The position numbers and the translations under genes were made by a program. Below are positions 817-7,110 of a DNA stretch of 41,126 nucleotides, piece by piece. The stretch is from Candidatus Fibrimonadales bacterium (GTDB lineage: Bacteria > Fibrobacterota > Fibrobacteria > Fibrobacterales > Fibrobacteraceae), in NCBI GenBank assembly GCA_009786285.1, contig WQTK01000337.1, positions 1 to 41,126 of the forward strand, in the 5' to 3' direction. The notes beneath the pieces are model-generated. The model was not told the DNA's origin, did not search any database, and was given only the letters and a program-made list of their open reading frames with translations. Within the stretch, counting starts at the first letter, position 1. Every line of letters begins with the position of its first letter.

Positions 817-899
817 AGGAAGAAGAGGGATTCGAACCCTCGGTTCTTGCGAACAGCGGTTTTCGAGACCGCCCCGATCGACCACTCCGGCATTCTTCC
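817..899 (-). tRNA. tRNA-Ser (anticodon CGA)
   Basis: Reverse complement ggaagaa...ccggagtggtcgatcgg...gcggtctCGAaaaccgc tgttcgcaagaac cgagggttcgaatccctc ttcttcc: 7-bp acceptor stem, 7-nt anticodon loop with CGA, long class II variable arm, canonical TTCGAAT T-loop. Confidence 0.93.
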
Positions 900-936: not shown

Positions 937-3900
937 ATGCGTAAGTCTCACAAACAAGAAATGCTTGCCCTTATTGCGACAATGGGCAAAATGGCAGACA
1001 TATTGCCGAATATGCAAGACCCTGCCGAGCAAATCCAAGACATTTTAGCAGCCTGCCAGTGCCTTAGGGACAATTTAGAAGGCGAAAACGCACCGGAATG
1101 CATATCCCTATTGCAATCTATTGATGCAACTGTAGAGACGGATAATTATCCGTCTCTACAATTGCACATAAAAAATCTGGCATCCGCATTTGCAGAAATA
1201 AAAATAAAAAAGGAAATTCTTTTTTTGCCGTATAAGGCTTCAATGTGGGACAGCCTGGAAAGCATTTACCTTGCCGCCAAAGAAGATCCGGACTGCGATG
1301 CTTTTGTTATGCCCATTCCGTATTATGACAAAAAAGACGGAAGGTTTACGGAAATGCACTGGGAAACTGAATACCCCAAAAACATATCTTTGATCGACTA
1401 TCGCAAGTACAATATTGAAGAGCGGCGCCCGGATATGATTTTTATACATAATCCTTATGACGATTTAAATATAGTTACAAGCGTGCATCCGGATTTTTTC
1501 AGTTCCAGGCTCAGAAATTTAACAGACTGTTTGGTATATGTGCCGTATTTTGTTGGGGATGGAAAAAGCATACAAGAGCATTTTTGCACATTGCCGGCAT
1601 GTATTTTTGCGCACAAAGTGATTGTTTACACCGAACAGGAAAGAGAAATTTATGTGAGGGAGTACAACAAAGCCACAAGGGAAAGCGGCAGCAAATTCCT
1701 GGCGTTAGGCAGCCCAAAATTGGACAAGGCGATTAACGCAAAACGCGAAGATTACGAATACCCAGATGAATGGAAAAAATTGATAAATAATAAAAAAGTT
1801 GTATTCTACAACACAAGCATAGGTTCATTGCTTGAAAAATCTGTAGAAAATAACAGACCATCGAATAAATATTTGCAAAAAATCAAAAAAGTATTTGAAT
1901 TTTTCAAAAATCAAAAAGACGCTGTTTTGCTATGGCGTCCGCACCCGCTTTTGGAAGGCACCATTAAGAGCATGCGCCCGTGGCTCGAGCAAGAATACGC
2001 AGAAATTGTGAATGAATACAAAGCTGAAGGTTATGGAATTTACGATGACAGCCAGGATTTGAACAGAGCCATAGCCATAAGCGATTTGTATTATGGTGAT
2101 GGAAGCAGTGTTACAAAGTTGTTTGATGAGGCGAAAAAGCCGGTTTTGGGGCAGGTGATTGGAACTTCTGCAGTTTGCGGGCTTTGTGATAGCAATGATT
2201 TTATTTGGTTTACAGATATTTTCAATGCACTTTACAGGTACAACAAGCAGAGCAAAAAAACGGAGTATATGGGAACAATTTCCTTACAAAGAAATGGAGC
2301 TTTTAGGGGAATAGCCGAAAGCAATGGAAAATTGTATTTAGCTTCTAGGTTTGGGGATAGAATATATGCTTTTGATATGGATAAAAAAGTTTTTGAGCGA
2401 AAAATTCAGTGTGATTATGAAATAAAAGATGCAATAAGTTTCAAAAATTATATTTATTTTATTTCGCAGGAGTTTCCAGCTATTTTAAAATATACCCCGA
2501 ATTCAAATGAGATGGTGAAATTTTCGCCGTGGGAAAAAGATATTTATTTTGGTAATTATTGCGTCACAGGCGATGAAATTGCCTTGGTTATAGCAGGCAA
2601 AAATTCCGTGATGTTTTTCAATATGGAAACCGGCGAGCATGCAATGGAGATAGTTGGAGAAGTGCCCGAGCAGTATAGCGATATATGTTTTGACGGGCAA
2701 AATTACTATCTCAGTTCGTTCAGCAAAAATTACATTGTAAAGTGGAACAGGCAAACTAGTAAAAGCGCAAAAATTATGCTTCCGAATTCCTTTTCAAGAA
2801 GCGAAGACAACCAAAACGCAAGTTTTTCAATTCGGTATTCCAATAAGCACATATGGCTTATCCCTTTTGCGGCAAATAATGCGTATAAAATAAACTTGCA
2901 AACAGAAAAATTCATAGAATTGCCAAGTCTTGTAAGTCATTTTGAGAGCAAGGGTTTTGGCTGGTATTATAATTTAACTGTGGCGAACGAAAACCTCATA
3001 TACGCTTCTACGCCTAACAAGGGTATTGTTGAATTTGACATAAGCACTTCCAAGCTGAGTTTCTTTGAACCATCTGCAGTGGAAAATTTCATAGAACCGA
3101 GTTTGCGTTATTATACAACAAAATATAAAGCACCGGCAGAGTGGAAAGATAAAAAAGTTGTGTTTTACAACAGCAAAAATCCGCAAGAGAGCGTATTTGA
3201 GTTTTTCAAAAAGCGAGATGACGCAGTTTTGCTAAGTCGTGCGATGTTTGATGAAACATGGAATTTAGACAGAGCCATTGCTGTGAGCGACGTGTATTAC
3301 GGTGATGCTGGAAATGTTATGGCGTTGTTTAACTGGGAGAAGAAAAAGGTTGCGCAACAGGTACTTGCAGTGTCAATTAATGGTATTTTTGATGACGGAG
3401 TTTATATTTGGTTTATAATTAATTGCAGCGTGCTTTATAAATATGATAAGCAGAGCAAAGAAACTGAGTGCATGGGAATAATTCCTGCGTCCCCTCAAAA
3501 TAACTGGGCAAATGTGTGGGTTGCAGAAAATAATAAAAAGCTATATTTTGCGCCATTCTTTAAAAATGATAAAATATCTGTTTTTAATATGGAGAAAAAG
3601 AGTTTTGAGCGCATAGAATTTAAGGATGATTGCAAATATGATAGAAAGTTTAAAGCAGTTATCAGTTTTAAAAATTTTGTTTATTTTATCCCTTATGATT
3701 TTCCTGCCATAATGAAGTTGAACGTAGATACCAATGAAATAGAATATTTTTCAGAATGGGTTGAAAAAATCTCTAAATTGCAAACTTCCAAATTGCCACA
3801 TGAAATTTGGAAAAATTCGAAGCTTTGGGGATTTTGTGTTGTTGATACGGAAATTGCAATAATGATACATGGAGCAAATGCTGTTATGTTTTTCAATATG

Positions 3901-4446
3901 GAAACCTGCGATTATGAAATTAAGAGTGTTGGCGAGAAATCAGAGCAATATAACCATATATGTTTTGATGGACAAAATTATTATATAACTACGTTTTATA
4001 AAGACTATATTGTTAAATGGAACCGGCAAACAAATGAGGTTTTCAAAATTAAAATTCCTTCCTTTTCTAAAAAAGATGGAATAGGCGCAAATTTTTCAAC
4101 TCGATATTTAAATGGGTATGTTTGGCTGATTCCATCTCTTGCAAATAGTACCTATAAAATAGATATAAATACGAATGAAGTTACGGAGTTGCCGGAGTTT
4201 GTGGAATATTTGGATAATAAAAATTTAAGTGGGCATTATGGAGTTTATTGTAAAAATGAAGATTCTTTTATAATGAGTACGCTGAAGAAAGGTATTGTTG
4301 AGTATAATACGAAAACTTCAGAATTGAAATTCATTAAAACAGCAGGCGCAGTATCGCAACTAGTTCAGTTGTTTAATGATTGTGAAAAAACAGAAGAAAA
4401 TTCTGGTAAAAGAATTTGGGGGTATTTAAAGGAGGCGTTGCCATGA
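937..4446 (+). CDS. CDP-glycerol glycerophosphotransferase-like protein with duplicated C-terminal beta-propeller-like region (1169 aa)
   Basis: N-terminal half: EILFLPYKASMWDSLESIYLAAKEDPDCDAFVMPIPYYD...RPDMIFIHNPYDD...; KKVVFYNTSIGSLLE...VFEFFKNQKDAVLLWRPHPLLEGT...DLNRAIAISDLYYGDGSSVTKLF. Followed by repeated IWFxxxxNxLYxYxKQSK / VMFFNMETxxY / ICFDGQNYYxxxFxKxYIVKWNRQT units. Confidence 0.65.
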   Translation: MRKSHKQEMLALIATMGKMADILPNMQDPAEQIQDILAACQCLRDNLEGENAPECISLLQSIDATVETDNYPSLQLHIKNLASAFAEIKIKKEILFLPYKASMWDSLESIYLAAKEDPDCDAFVMPIPYYDKKDGRFTEMHWETEYPKNISLIDYRKYNIEERRPDMIFIHNPYDDLNIVTSVHPDFFSSRLRNLTDCLVYVPYFVGDGKSIQEHFCTLPACIFAHKVIVYTEQEREIYVREYNKATRESGSKFLALGSPKLDKAINAKREDYEYPDEWKKLINNKKVVFYNTSIGSLLEKSVENNRPSNKYLQKIKKVFEFFKNQKDAVLLWRPHPLLEGTIKSMRPWLEQEYAEIVNEYKAEGYGIYDDSQDLNRAIAISDLYYGDGSSVTKLFDEAKKPVLGQVIGTSAVCGLCDSNDFIWFTDIFNALYRYNKQSKKTEYMGTISLQRNGAFRGIAESNGKLYLASRFGDRIYAFDMDKKVFERKIQCDYEIKDAISFKNYIYFISQEFPAILKYTPNSNEMVKFSPWEKDIYFGNYCVTGDEIALVIAGKNSVMFFNMETGEHAMEIVGEVPEQYSDICFDGQNYYLSSFSKNYIVKWNRQTSKSAKIMLPNSFSRSEDNQNASFSIRYSNKHIWLIPFAANNAYKINLQTEKFIELPSLVSHFESKGFGWYYNLTVANENLIYASTPNKGIVEFDISTSKLSFFEPSAVENFIEPSLRYYTTKYKAPAEWKDKKVVFYNSKNPQESVFEFFKKRDDAVLLSRAMFDETWNLDRAIAVSDVYYGDAGNVMALFNWEKKKVAQQVLAVSINGIFDDGVYIWFIINCSVLYKYDKQSKETECMGIIPASPQNNWANVWVAENNKKLYFAPFFKNDKISVFNMEKKSFERIEFKDDCKYDRKFKAVISFKNFVYFIPYDFPAIMKLNVDTNEIEYFSEWVEKISKLQTSKLPHEIWKNSKLWGFCVVDTEIAIMIHGANAVMFFNMETCDYEIKSVGEKSEQYNHICFDGQNYYITTFYKDYIVKWNRQTNEVFKIKIPSFSKKDGIGANFSTRYLNGYVWLIPSLANSTYKIDINTNEVTELPEFVEYLDNKNLSGHYGVYCKNEDSFIMSTLKKGIVEYNTKTSELKFIKTAGAVSQLVQLFNDCEKTEENSGKRIWGYLKEALP
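1125..1166. repeat. 42-nt near-perfect palindrome (core 1131-1160 is a perfect 30-nt palindrome)
   Basis: tgcaac tgtagagacggataa|ttatccgtctctaca attgca; arms of 21 nt with one mismatched pair (c1130/a1161). Confidence 0.95.
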
Positions 4447-5177
4447 ATACAGCGTTAATATTTGCCGGGGGAACCGGAATAAGAATGAATTCCAACGCAA
4501 AGCCAAAGCAATTTTTGAGCATTCGCCAAAAACCAGTGCTTATATATACTTTGGAACACTTTGAAAACCATGAAGAGATAGACAATATTTGCATTGTATG
4601 CCTCGCAAGTTGGATTAACGAATTGAAAAGAATGTTAAAATTATATGAAATAACAAAAGTAAAGTGGATTGTAAAAGGAGGGAACACGGCCCAGGAATCC
4701 ATATTTAACGGACTTTCCGCAATATATGCGGATGATTCAAATCCAAAAGAAACCGTTGTTTTAATCCACGATGGAGTTAGACCTTTAATAGATGGTGAAT
4801 TAATTGCAAAATGCATAGATAGTGTTAAAAAACACGGTTCTGCCATAACGGTGGCTCCAATAGCCGAAACCATTGTAAATATAAATCAGGGCAGCGCAAT
4901 AGAAACAATAGAAAATATAAAGGAACGCTCAATACATAAATTTGCTCGCGCTCCGCAATGCTTCTTTTTAGAAGATATTTTCGCAGTTCATAAAAAAAGC
5001 AGAGAAAATGGAATAAATTGCATTTTAGACTCAGCGACTTTAATGCATCAAAACGGACATCCGTTATTTATAGTTGACGGCCCGGAAAAAAACATCAAAA
5101 TCACAACTTCAATAGATTATTATATATTCAAAGCGTTGCTGAATGCGGAAGAGGATGCGCAGGTATTTGGAATATGA
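4443..5177 (+). CDS. IspD/TarI-family cytidylyltransferase
   Basis: MNTALIFAGGTGIRMNSNAKPKQFLSIRQKPVLIYTLEHF...VVLIHDGVRPLID...ARAPQCFFLEDIF...ILDSATLMHQNGHPLFIVDGPEKNIKITTSIDYYI. ATG 4443 has GGAGG upstream and an ATGA overlap with the previous stop, so it is preferred over the track start 4416. Confidence 0.85.
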   Translation: MNTALIFAGGTGIRMNSNAKPKQFLSIRQKPVLIYTLEHFENHEEIDNICIVCLASWINELKRMLKLYEITKVKWIVKGGNTAQESIFNGLSAIYADDSNPKETVVLIHDGVRPLIDGELIAKCIDSVKKHGSAITVAPIAETIVNINQGSAIETIENIKERSIHKFARAPQCFFLEDIFAVHKKSRENGINCILDSATLMHQNGHPLFIVDGPEKNIKITTSIDYYIFKALLNAEEDAQVFGI

Positions 5178-5980
5178 CAGATTTTGAAAATAAAACTTTT
5201 TTCATAACCGGCGCAACAGGCTTGCTTGGTTCAGCTTTAATTAAGCATTTACAAGAAAAGAATCGCATAATTGCATGGACACGGGAAAAGGGTGACATTC
5301 GTGAAAAAATATCTATTGACGAACCTATTGATTACATTGTACATGGCGCAAATCCAACCGCATCAAAATATTTTGTGGACTATCCCGTTGAAACAATAAG
5401 AATAATTTACGAAGGCACATTAAATACATTGGAGCTTGCAAGAGAAAAGAATGTCAAAGGTTACCTTTATCTTTCTTCGTTGGAAGTTTATACGAATATA
5501 ACCGGTGTGAGAAATTGTTATCCGGAAGGCAAACGGCTTGCCGAGTGTTTATGCACAAGTTATTTTCATGAATACGGAGTTAATGCTAAAATAGCTAGGC
5601 TGGCACAGGTTTTTGGACCTGGGATTGACTTGGAAAATGACAACCGAGTGATTGCGCAGTTTATGCGCTGCGCAAGAGACAAGAAAGACATTGTTCTGCG
5701 AACAAAAGGCGATACTGTGCGAAATTATTGCCATATAACGGATGCTGTAAGCGCAATGCTGTGCATTCTTGCCAAAGGGAAAGGCGGTGAGTTTTACGAT
5801 ATCGCAAGCAAAAACACCGAGATTTCAGTTTGTGATTTGGCCAAGCAGTTCGGGAATGTTGTTTTTGACATAGCGGAAGATACTGAAAAGTTAGGATATT
5901 TGCCAACGGTCAGAATTGTTTTAGATACGGCTAAATTGGAGAGTTTGGGATGGAAGCCTGGCGCAAATCTGAAATGGTAG
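5174..5980 (+). CDS. NAD-dependent epimerase/dehydratase (extended SDR)
   Basis: FFITGATGLLGSALIKHL (GxxGxxG), YLYLSSLEVY, YPEGKRLAE (YxxxK), ARLAQVFGPG. ATGA overlap with the upstream gene. Confidence 0.85.
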   Translation: MTDFENKTFFITGATGLLGSALIKHLQEKNRIIAWTREKGDIREKISIDEPIDYIVHGANPTASKYFVDYPVETIRIIYEGTLNTLELAREKNVKGYLYLSSLEVYTNITGVRNCYPEGKRLAECLCTSYFHEYGVNAKIARLAQVFGPGIDLENDNRVIAQFMRCARDKKDIVLRTKGDTVRNYCHITDAVSAMLCILAKGKGGEFYDIASKNTEISVCDLAKQFGNVVFDIAEDTEKLGYLPTVRIVLDTAKLESLGWKPGANLKW

Positions 5981-7110
5981 CCAAGTTAAATACTCTTAAC
6001 TTTGCAGGCAAAACGGTGTTCGTCTTTGGGCATTGCAACGCTACCGGAGAAATGATAGATTATCTTGCACAGATTTCCGTTCATGTAACGGCCATTTTGG
6101 ATAACAATGAAGCTAAAATAGGAAACGCATATAAAGAAGTTCCTATAGTTGAACCTGCGCATATTCTGAAATTTTCAAACTGCATGGTTCTTATAGCCAA
6201 CAGATTCTGTGAACAAATGACTGAGCAGCTTCACAATCTAGGTTACAAGGGCGAAATCGTGAAAGTTTTAGAATACAATTTCTTTGCAGAATGTACGCCT
6301 GAGCGAATACGCAAAGGGACGGACATTCTGAAAAAAATAAGAGTTCTGTATCCGGAACGACACTTGGTCATTTGCCCGCACAATTCGCTTGGCGATGTGT
6401 ACTGGGCCATGTCTTTTTTGCCATCTTACACCGCAAAACCATGCGTTGTGGCAGTGAATAGCGAAGGATGCCATCAAGTTGCAGAGATGTTCGGGCAGAA
6501 AAGCATAACCGTGTCAAATGAAGAGATGGATGAATTAACACAGGCTGTAATTTCCAATAAAGAACAAAATTGCATAGTGGCTCATCACGATAAAGTACAC
6601 ACGGACAGTGCCATAGAATATTTGAATAGCCATTTCATTTCGTTTATAGATTTTTACAAATACAGAGTGTTTGGTTTAGATGAATCTGCCGAACCTGTTT
6701 TGCCAAGCTGCAATTTGCCTTTTGAAAATACAGTTGGCATTTTGCAGGGCAAAACTCTTATAATTTCACCTTATGCCAAAAGCGTTATTTTATTGCCGAA
6801 TGAATTTTGGCTGAATGTGATAAGTGAATACAAAAGCAAAGAATTTATGGTATGCACAAGTGTAATTGGCAGCGAGGAACCGCTTGAAGGCACAATTCCC
6901 GTTTCTTTTCCGTTGAATCAAGCTGTTAAAGCGGTTGAATATGCAGGTTATTTTATAGGTATTCGCAGCGGCTTGTGCGATGTAATCAACTCTGCTGTGT
7001 GCAATAAAACCGTTGTTTTCCCTGATTGCATCTATAGCACAACAAAGATGAAAGTTGCTGATTTTTTCGCATTGCCGGGATGGAATTTTCTAAATTTAAA
7101 GCCTATATGA
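5974..7110 (+). CDS. Rossmann-like module fused to GT9/GT-B-like glycosyltransferase domain
   Basis: N-term GKTVFVFGHCNATGEMIDYLAQISVHVTAILDNNEAKIGNAYKEVPIVEPAHIL; C-term HLVICPHNSLGDVYWAMSFLPSY...GKTLIISPYAKS...FMVCTSVIGSEEP...FPLNQAVKAVEYAGYFIGIRSGLCDVINSA. Paralogous to ORF 9638-10927. Start could be 5950. Confidence 0.6.
   Translation: MVAKLNTLNFAGKTVFVFGHCNATGEMIDYLAQISVHVTAILDNNEAKIGNAYKEVPIVEPAHILKFSNCMVLIANRFCEQMTEQLHNLGYKGEIVKVLEYNFFAECTPERIRKGTDILKKIRVLYPERHLVICPHNSLGDVYWAMSFLPSYTAKPCVVAVNSEGCHQVAEMFGQKSITVSNEEMDELTQAVISNKEQNCIVAHHDKVHTDSAIEYLNSHFISFIDFYKYRVFGLDESAEPVLPSCNLPFENTVGILQGKTLIISPYAKSVILLPNEFWLNVISEYKSKEFMVCTSVIGSEEPLEGTIPVSFPLNQAVKAVEYAGYFIGIRSGLCDVINSAVCNKTVVFPDCIYSTTKMKVADFFALPGWNFLNLKPI

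Follow-up and report, generated by a model that had tools for sequence, protein, structure and literature searches.

A palindrome of 42 nucleotides lying in frame within a coding sequence raises the question of what kind of sequence it is and how it came to be translated. The window considered here is the whole analysed stretch of 41,126 nucleotides, from a Candidatus Fibrimonadales bacterium, and the palindrome at 1125-1166 ranked first among its inverted repeats. It is very probably a double-foot REP that has become fixed at this site. Such a REP is a miniature non-autonomous element with GTAG at one end and CTAC at the other, and was spread most likely by a RAYT of the subclass 2.4 kind. 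Its membership of the double-foot REPs is well supported.

The palindrome and the gene that carries it

The features are, in window coordinates:

817-899, minus strand: tRNA-Ser (anticodon CGA), just upstream of the host ORF
937-4446, plus strand: host ORF of 1169 aa; VETDNYPSLQ (residues 66-75) lies in a variable segment that precedes the conserved FLPYKASMWDSLES region
1125-1130, no strand: left outer arm, TGCAAC, complementary to 1161-1166 at 5/6 positions
1131-1160, no strand: perfect palindrome, of which the 28-nt GTAG...CTAC unit at 1132-1159 is the double-foot REP copy, with centre GATAATTATC
1161-1166, no strand: right outer arm, ATTGCA

An earlier note on this DNA had described a near-perfect 42-nt palindrome with a perfect 30-nt core, and both are present. 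The core is TGTAGAGACGGATAATTATCCGTCTCTACA, and allowing one mismatch lengthens each arm to 21 nt (95% complementarity; 1125-1145 against 1146-1166), with no spacer between them. It is the 28-30-nt core that is repeated through the genome, the outer six nucleotides (TGCAAC/ATTGCA) being absent from most copies, and the left outer arm, which is specific to this locus, is perhaps the edge of a larger element. The palindrome occupies codons 66-75 of the host ORF and is translated as ...IDATVETDNYPSLQLH..., and the ORFs that follow overlap or abut (4416-5177, 5174-5980, 5950-7110), so that the position claimed for it, in frame and about 190 nt past the ATG of the first gene of an overlapping series, is borne out by the ORF coordinates. 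A profile search with the 1169-aa protein established no function. The rest of the window (4416-41126) is a long run of overlapping plus strand ORFs that are by eye surface-glycan or nucleotide-sugar-like, with likenesses to cytidylyltransferase, epimerase, FkbM-methyltransferase and radical-SAM proteins.

It had been suggested that some 10-14 aa might be inserted at this point, and no such insertion is seen in the window gene. The interval between anchors is 53 aa, compared with 52-54 aa in most orthologous sequences and 60 aa in one, and because it matches the length in the orthologues the palindrome would have replaced host codons, about as many as it supplies, in a part of the protein that varies and where the peptide may lie in a surface loop. 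Orthologues of the window gene from the genus carry neither the intact palindrome nor the residues that it encodes.

The RNA of the region is predicted to form a stem of 13 bp closed by a loop of 4 nt (-28.8 kcal/mol, z = -6.8 relative to shuffled sequences), and so strong a predicted hairpin, 190 nt into the first gene, could serve as a cis-acting RNA element of the operon (an attenuator, a pause or a processing site), as the earlier note had also proposed. Such a role is very improbable, given that the identical sequence is present in many unrelated genes and that the orthologues elsewhere in the genus are without the palindrome. The GC-rich hairpin followed by a T tract that marks an intrinsic terminator is not what is found either, a T tract being absent 3' of the hairpin, where AATTGCACAT comes inside the open ORF; a search of Rfam gave the tRNA as the sole match above the gathering score. 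The proposal that the hairpin regulates the operon thus gained no specific support.

The repeat family and its probable transposase

Copies were counted by pattern searches of the genome assembly (3.10 Mb, 339 contigs, 88.9% complete). The pattern GTAGAGACG-N(0-30)-CGTCTCTAC occurs at 36 places, one of which is an overlapping double match at C198, and the reversed-pattern control occurs at none, so that the palindrome is not unique in the genome and the dispersed REP-like family that had been suspected does exist. A chance palindrome is a negligible explanation, because the arithmetic expectation for perfect palindromes with 15-nt arms in the 41-kb window is about 4e-5 (41126/4^15), against 36 intact-arm places with a zero control. 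The centres are of the types GATAATTATC (that of the window), CAATGCATTG with variants, and CGATGCATCG. The window-type 28-mer has 9 exact copies in the genome and 17 places at three or fewer mismatches; the nine perfect copies comprise five in host genes, one in a RAYT and three in an intergenic mosaic element. These last three (C15, C35 and C199) were considered as intragenic copies and rejected on account of that location. Besides its window-type palindrome, the mosaic element (L009, L011 and L234) contains other inverted repeats, among them ATTGCGCAAT. In the position just beyond CTAC, 52-59% of ends have an A, and at the copies compared neither a target duplication, nor a fixed insertion boundary, nor a constant inserted length was seen, and no clean empty site was defined.

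Copies are present in 9 of 13 genomes of the genus, at 0 to 34 per genome, and the palindrome is found in 21 of 101 related genomes. In G010 most copies fall in short or spurious ORFs, and the in-gene habit of the present genome is therefore not general for the genus.

Such elements would be moved by a RAYT (TnpA-REP, an HuH tyrosine nuclease), for which the earlier note had advised a search, and the genome encodes two. The C110 RAYT (230 aa) has MPNHFHG and WQ (FAWQ) motifs and an in-frame palindrome after the HuH motif; palindromes lie at 3156, 3433 and 3881 of C110, the second inside the RAYT and the outer two flanking the gene. The C202 RAYT (273 aa) has MPNHVHG and FAWQ and carries an in-frame window-type copy at C202:645. 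Both match NCBIfam NF047646 (REP-associated tyrosine transposase; E = 8.4e-14 for C110 and 7.3e-12 for C202), with bit scores of 51.7 and 45.4 that fall under the curated cut-off of 80, probably because these RAYTs are split by inserted palindromes. Their C-terminal motif, YILDNP or YINDNP, is one residue off the YIxNNP described for subclass 2.4 in PMC6006769. A PDB search with the C110 RAYT returned nothing at E <= 1.

The distribution of RAYTs among genomes is consistent with this assignment. PF01797 alone proved a poor means of detection, since it missed palindrome-carrying RAYTs and found mostly IS200-type genes, and any PF01797 protein was associated with the palindrome at p = 0.03; the C110 protein as query worked. 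Relatives found with it occur in 18 of the 21 genomes that have palindromes and in 17 of the 80 that have none (Fisher p = 8e-8), and outside the bacterium's own family in 10 of 11 against 12 of 29 (p = 0.01), although these p-values are not independent because the genomes share ancestry. Within its own genus there was no association (7 of 9 against 4 of 4), and a RAYT of the C110 kind went undetected in three palindrome-bearing genomes, some of them incomplete. Among the matches listed from other genomes a RAYT-like ORF lies at 11 of 120 loci, with the palindrome inside it in 9 of the 11, and in G084 and G009 palindromes flank the RAYT. The G009 RAYT (paired with that of G011 as L364/L365) keeps only half of its internal palindrome and G011 has about one and a half, which suggests that copies may be gained and lost in half-units.

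Copies translated within proteins

At least nine unrelated host proteins contain an internal peptide encoded by the palindrome (VETDNYPSLQ, VETQCIASL or CRDAMHCVST). The hosts are:

the window gene, PriA, MiaA, NuoG, a GT2 glycosyltransferase, a helix-hairpin-helix protein, CydC (two copies), CarB and a 242-aa unassigned protein

PriA, MiaA, NuoG, GT2, the helix-hairpin-helix protein and CydC were identified from profile matches, and CarB and a radical-SAM-linked protein from reading the sequence. Only one frame is free of stops in the window type (VETDNYPSL), and two are in the CAATGCATTG type. At the sites compared (PriA, MiaA, NuoG, CydC and others) an intact palindrome is absent from the sequences of the same genus. 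Relative to the nearest relative the net gain is 21 nt in NuoG, 18 in MiaA, 24 in PriA and zero in the window gene, and the first CydC copy shortens the protein; since the net length changes vary in this way, a copy has often replaced host sequence, or was inserted and then offset by a loss nearby. In G009, which is the closest relative in several genes, three host genes have what seem to be degenerate copies at the corresponding sites (weakly in the window gene, and in C267 and C305), and these, together with the half palindrome in its RAYT, indicate that some copies predate the split from G009.

In some species of the genus (L276, L264, L294, L295 and L296) a second repeat, NSQLSTLNSQ-like, stands in PriA and MiaA at the variable segments that hold the palindrome here, and its presence there points to tolerant segments. 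In-gene copies may be those that survive where a stop-free frame continues the gene and the peptide falls in a tolerant segment, and the copy in the window gene may well be neutral or nearly so. That the peptide is instead a functional tag selected in its host proteins is very unlikely. The recurrence of VETDNYPSLQ in unrelated proteins, and of SRDAMHRVST in nine T9SS sorting domains, might suggest it, but the peptide follows the DNA, with other centres or the second frame giving VETQCIASL and CRDAMHCVST, copies also occur between genes, and in the T9SS domains the synonymous sites of the palindrome are conserved too.

These T9SS domains, recognised by profile match in the single genome, comprise nine paralogues with a palindrome at one position and nine without. 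Pairs differ on average by 0.024 in the palindrome and by 0.20-0.24 in the 45-nt flanks, and in eight of the paralogues synonymous codon differences stand at 5% in the palindrome and 29% in the flanks, about six times less, in pairs that are not independent. Recent re-insertion of the palindrome, or conversion among the paralogues, would give the same result. In one orthologous pair (C305 and G009) there are two paired changes that keep the symmetry, GACGGAC/GTCCGTC against GACAGAT/ATCTGTC. A candidate for the maintenance of the palindrome is template switching, which is known to occur at quasi-palindromes; the symmetry of the palindrome would be renewed in this way or by conversion between copies. 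Taking the 5% against 29% synonymous difference together with the paired changes as hints of such renewal, it is possible, though we hold this only tentatively, that GTAGAGACG/CGTCTCTAC constitutes one trans-phylum REP lineage, in which template switching or conversion restores the DNA of the copies, so that they stay near-fixed within diverging genes and supply peptides to conserved proteins.

Distribution among phyla and comparison with known REPs

A scan with one genome per species and 264 billion bases in all matched at least 120 stretches, whereas about 4 exact matches would be expected by chance (arithmetic). Among the matches listed, the same arms occur with changed yet symmetric centres in about ten phyla. 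The sources as labelled in the records of the matches listed include Bacteroidota, Cyanobacteria, Spirochaetes, Chloroflexi, Proteobacteria and Desulfobacterota relatives, and further Zixibacteria, Cloacimonadota, Acidobacteria, Planctomycetes and candidate-phyla bacteria, of which single cases could be contamination as many of the source records are MAGs. The resemblance to cyanobacterial repeats mentioned in the earlier note is upheld by relatives with the same arms in Cyanobacteria. The centre is perfectly symmetric in 101 of 147 palindromes among the matches listed, even though the centres differ. In the other genomes, again among the matches listed, 29 of the 147 are inside ORFs of 150 aa or more, and nine of these loci are RAYTs; some of the remainder may be spurious, the ORFs being without gene calls.

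A perfect palindrome of 28-30 bp with fixed arms is also a plausible site for a dimer, and its presence in about ten phyla among the matches listed might be taken to mean a chromosomal signal or binding site (an operator, a recombination or an uptake signal) that merely resembles a REP. This too has a very low probability: the centres vary between genomes yet stay symmetric, copies lie inside coding sequences and RAYT genes, and copy number ranges from 0 to 34 within one genus. With a double-foot REP as the preferred explanation, the shared arms suggest that recognition by the RAYT constrains the outer 9 nt, the centre drifting symmetrically.

Tiny mobile hairpins that often lie in frame within genes are already a known kind of element, and the present case is an ordinary kind in an unusual setting, for which we infer RAYT-driven movement. 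What is new is the arm common to about ten phyla, the extent to which proteins are decorated and the low synonymous divergence of palindrome codons; a literature search for the arm sequence found unrelated primer matches only. In one genome a tRNA-modifying enzyme, a replication helicase, a respiratory subunit and a secretion-signal family all bear mobile 10-codon blocks of one family, which provides a countable case of selfish DNA turned into protein sequence.

Double-foot REPs, and REPs in frame inside tnpA-REP genes, are described in PMC6006769, and REPs inside other genes in PMC3733652. The single long hairpin here fits the class, with 5' GT[AG]G and 3' C[TC]AC as its two ends, and so do the dispersed copies, the TnpA-REP with HuH and WQ motifs in the same genome and the in-frame and flanking REPs at the RAYT. 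As described in PMC6006769, subclass 2.4 TnpA-REPs (RAYT group 4) have double-foot REPs, each a long hairpin that begins with GTAG and finishes with CTAC, usually with an in-frame REP between HuH and Y of the RAYT gene, and they reach Cyanobacteria, Bacteroidetes and scattered phyla; the present system is alike in its ends, in its in-frame REP and in its taxonomic reach. Two differences stand out from that account: the RAYTs here have YIxDNP rather than YIxNNP, and the 9-nt arms common to about ten phyla conflict with the view given there that the sequence of a REP is particular to its species. REPINs and BIMEs share a RAYT-linked inverted structure but consist of two REPs and a spacer, and a single hairpin with a 0-nt spacer does not belong with them, although PMC6006769 does consider that a double-foot REP could arise from a REP dimer by central deletion. 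The GTAG-tagged intragenic REPs of PMC3733652, here compared by their descriptions in the text, likewise have a GTAG terminus and copies in replication and repair genes, as here in PriA, but those families mostly have one unpaired GTAG foot. The Rickettsia palindromic elements (RPE; the CGTC REPs of PMC3733652) are translated in frame in unrelated proteins as here, and PMC3733652 reports no dedicated transposase found for CGTC REPs; in RPE-4 and RPE-6 the terminal CGTC tag is unpaired, whereas here CGTC lies within the stem and the ends are GTAG and CTAC, so that the unpaired tag of that group is lacking. The present element extends RAYT-linked double-foot REPs to a further lineage.
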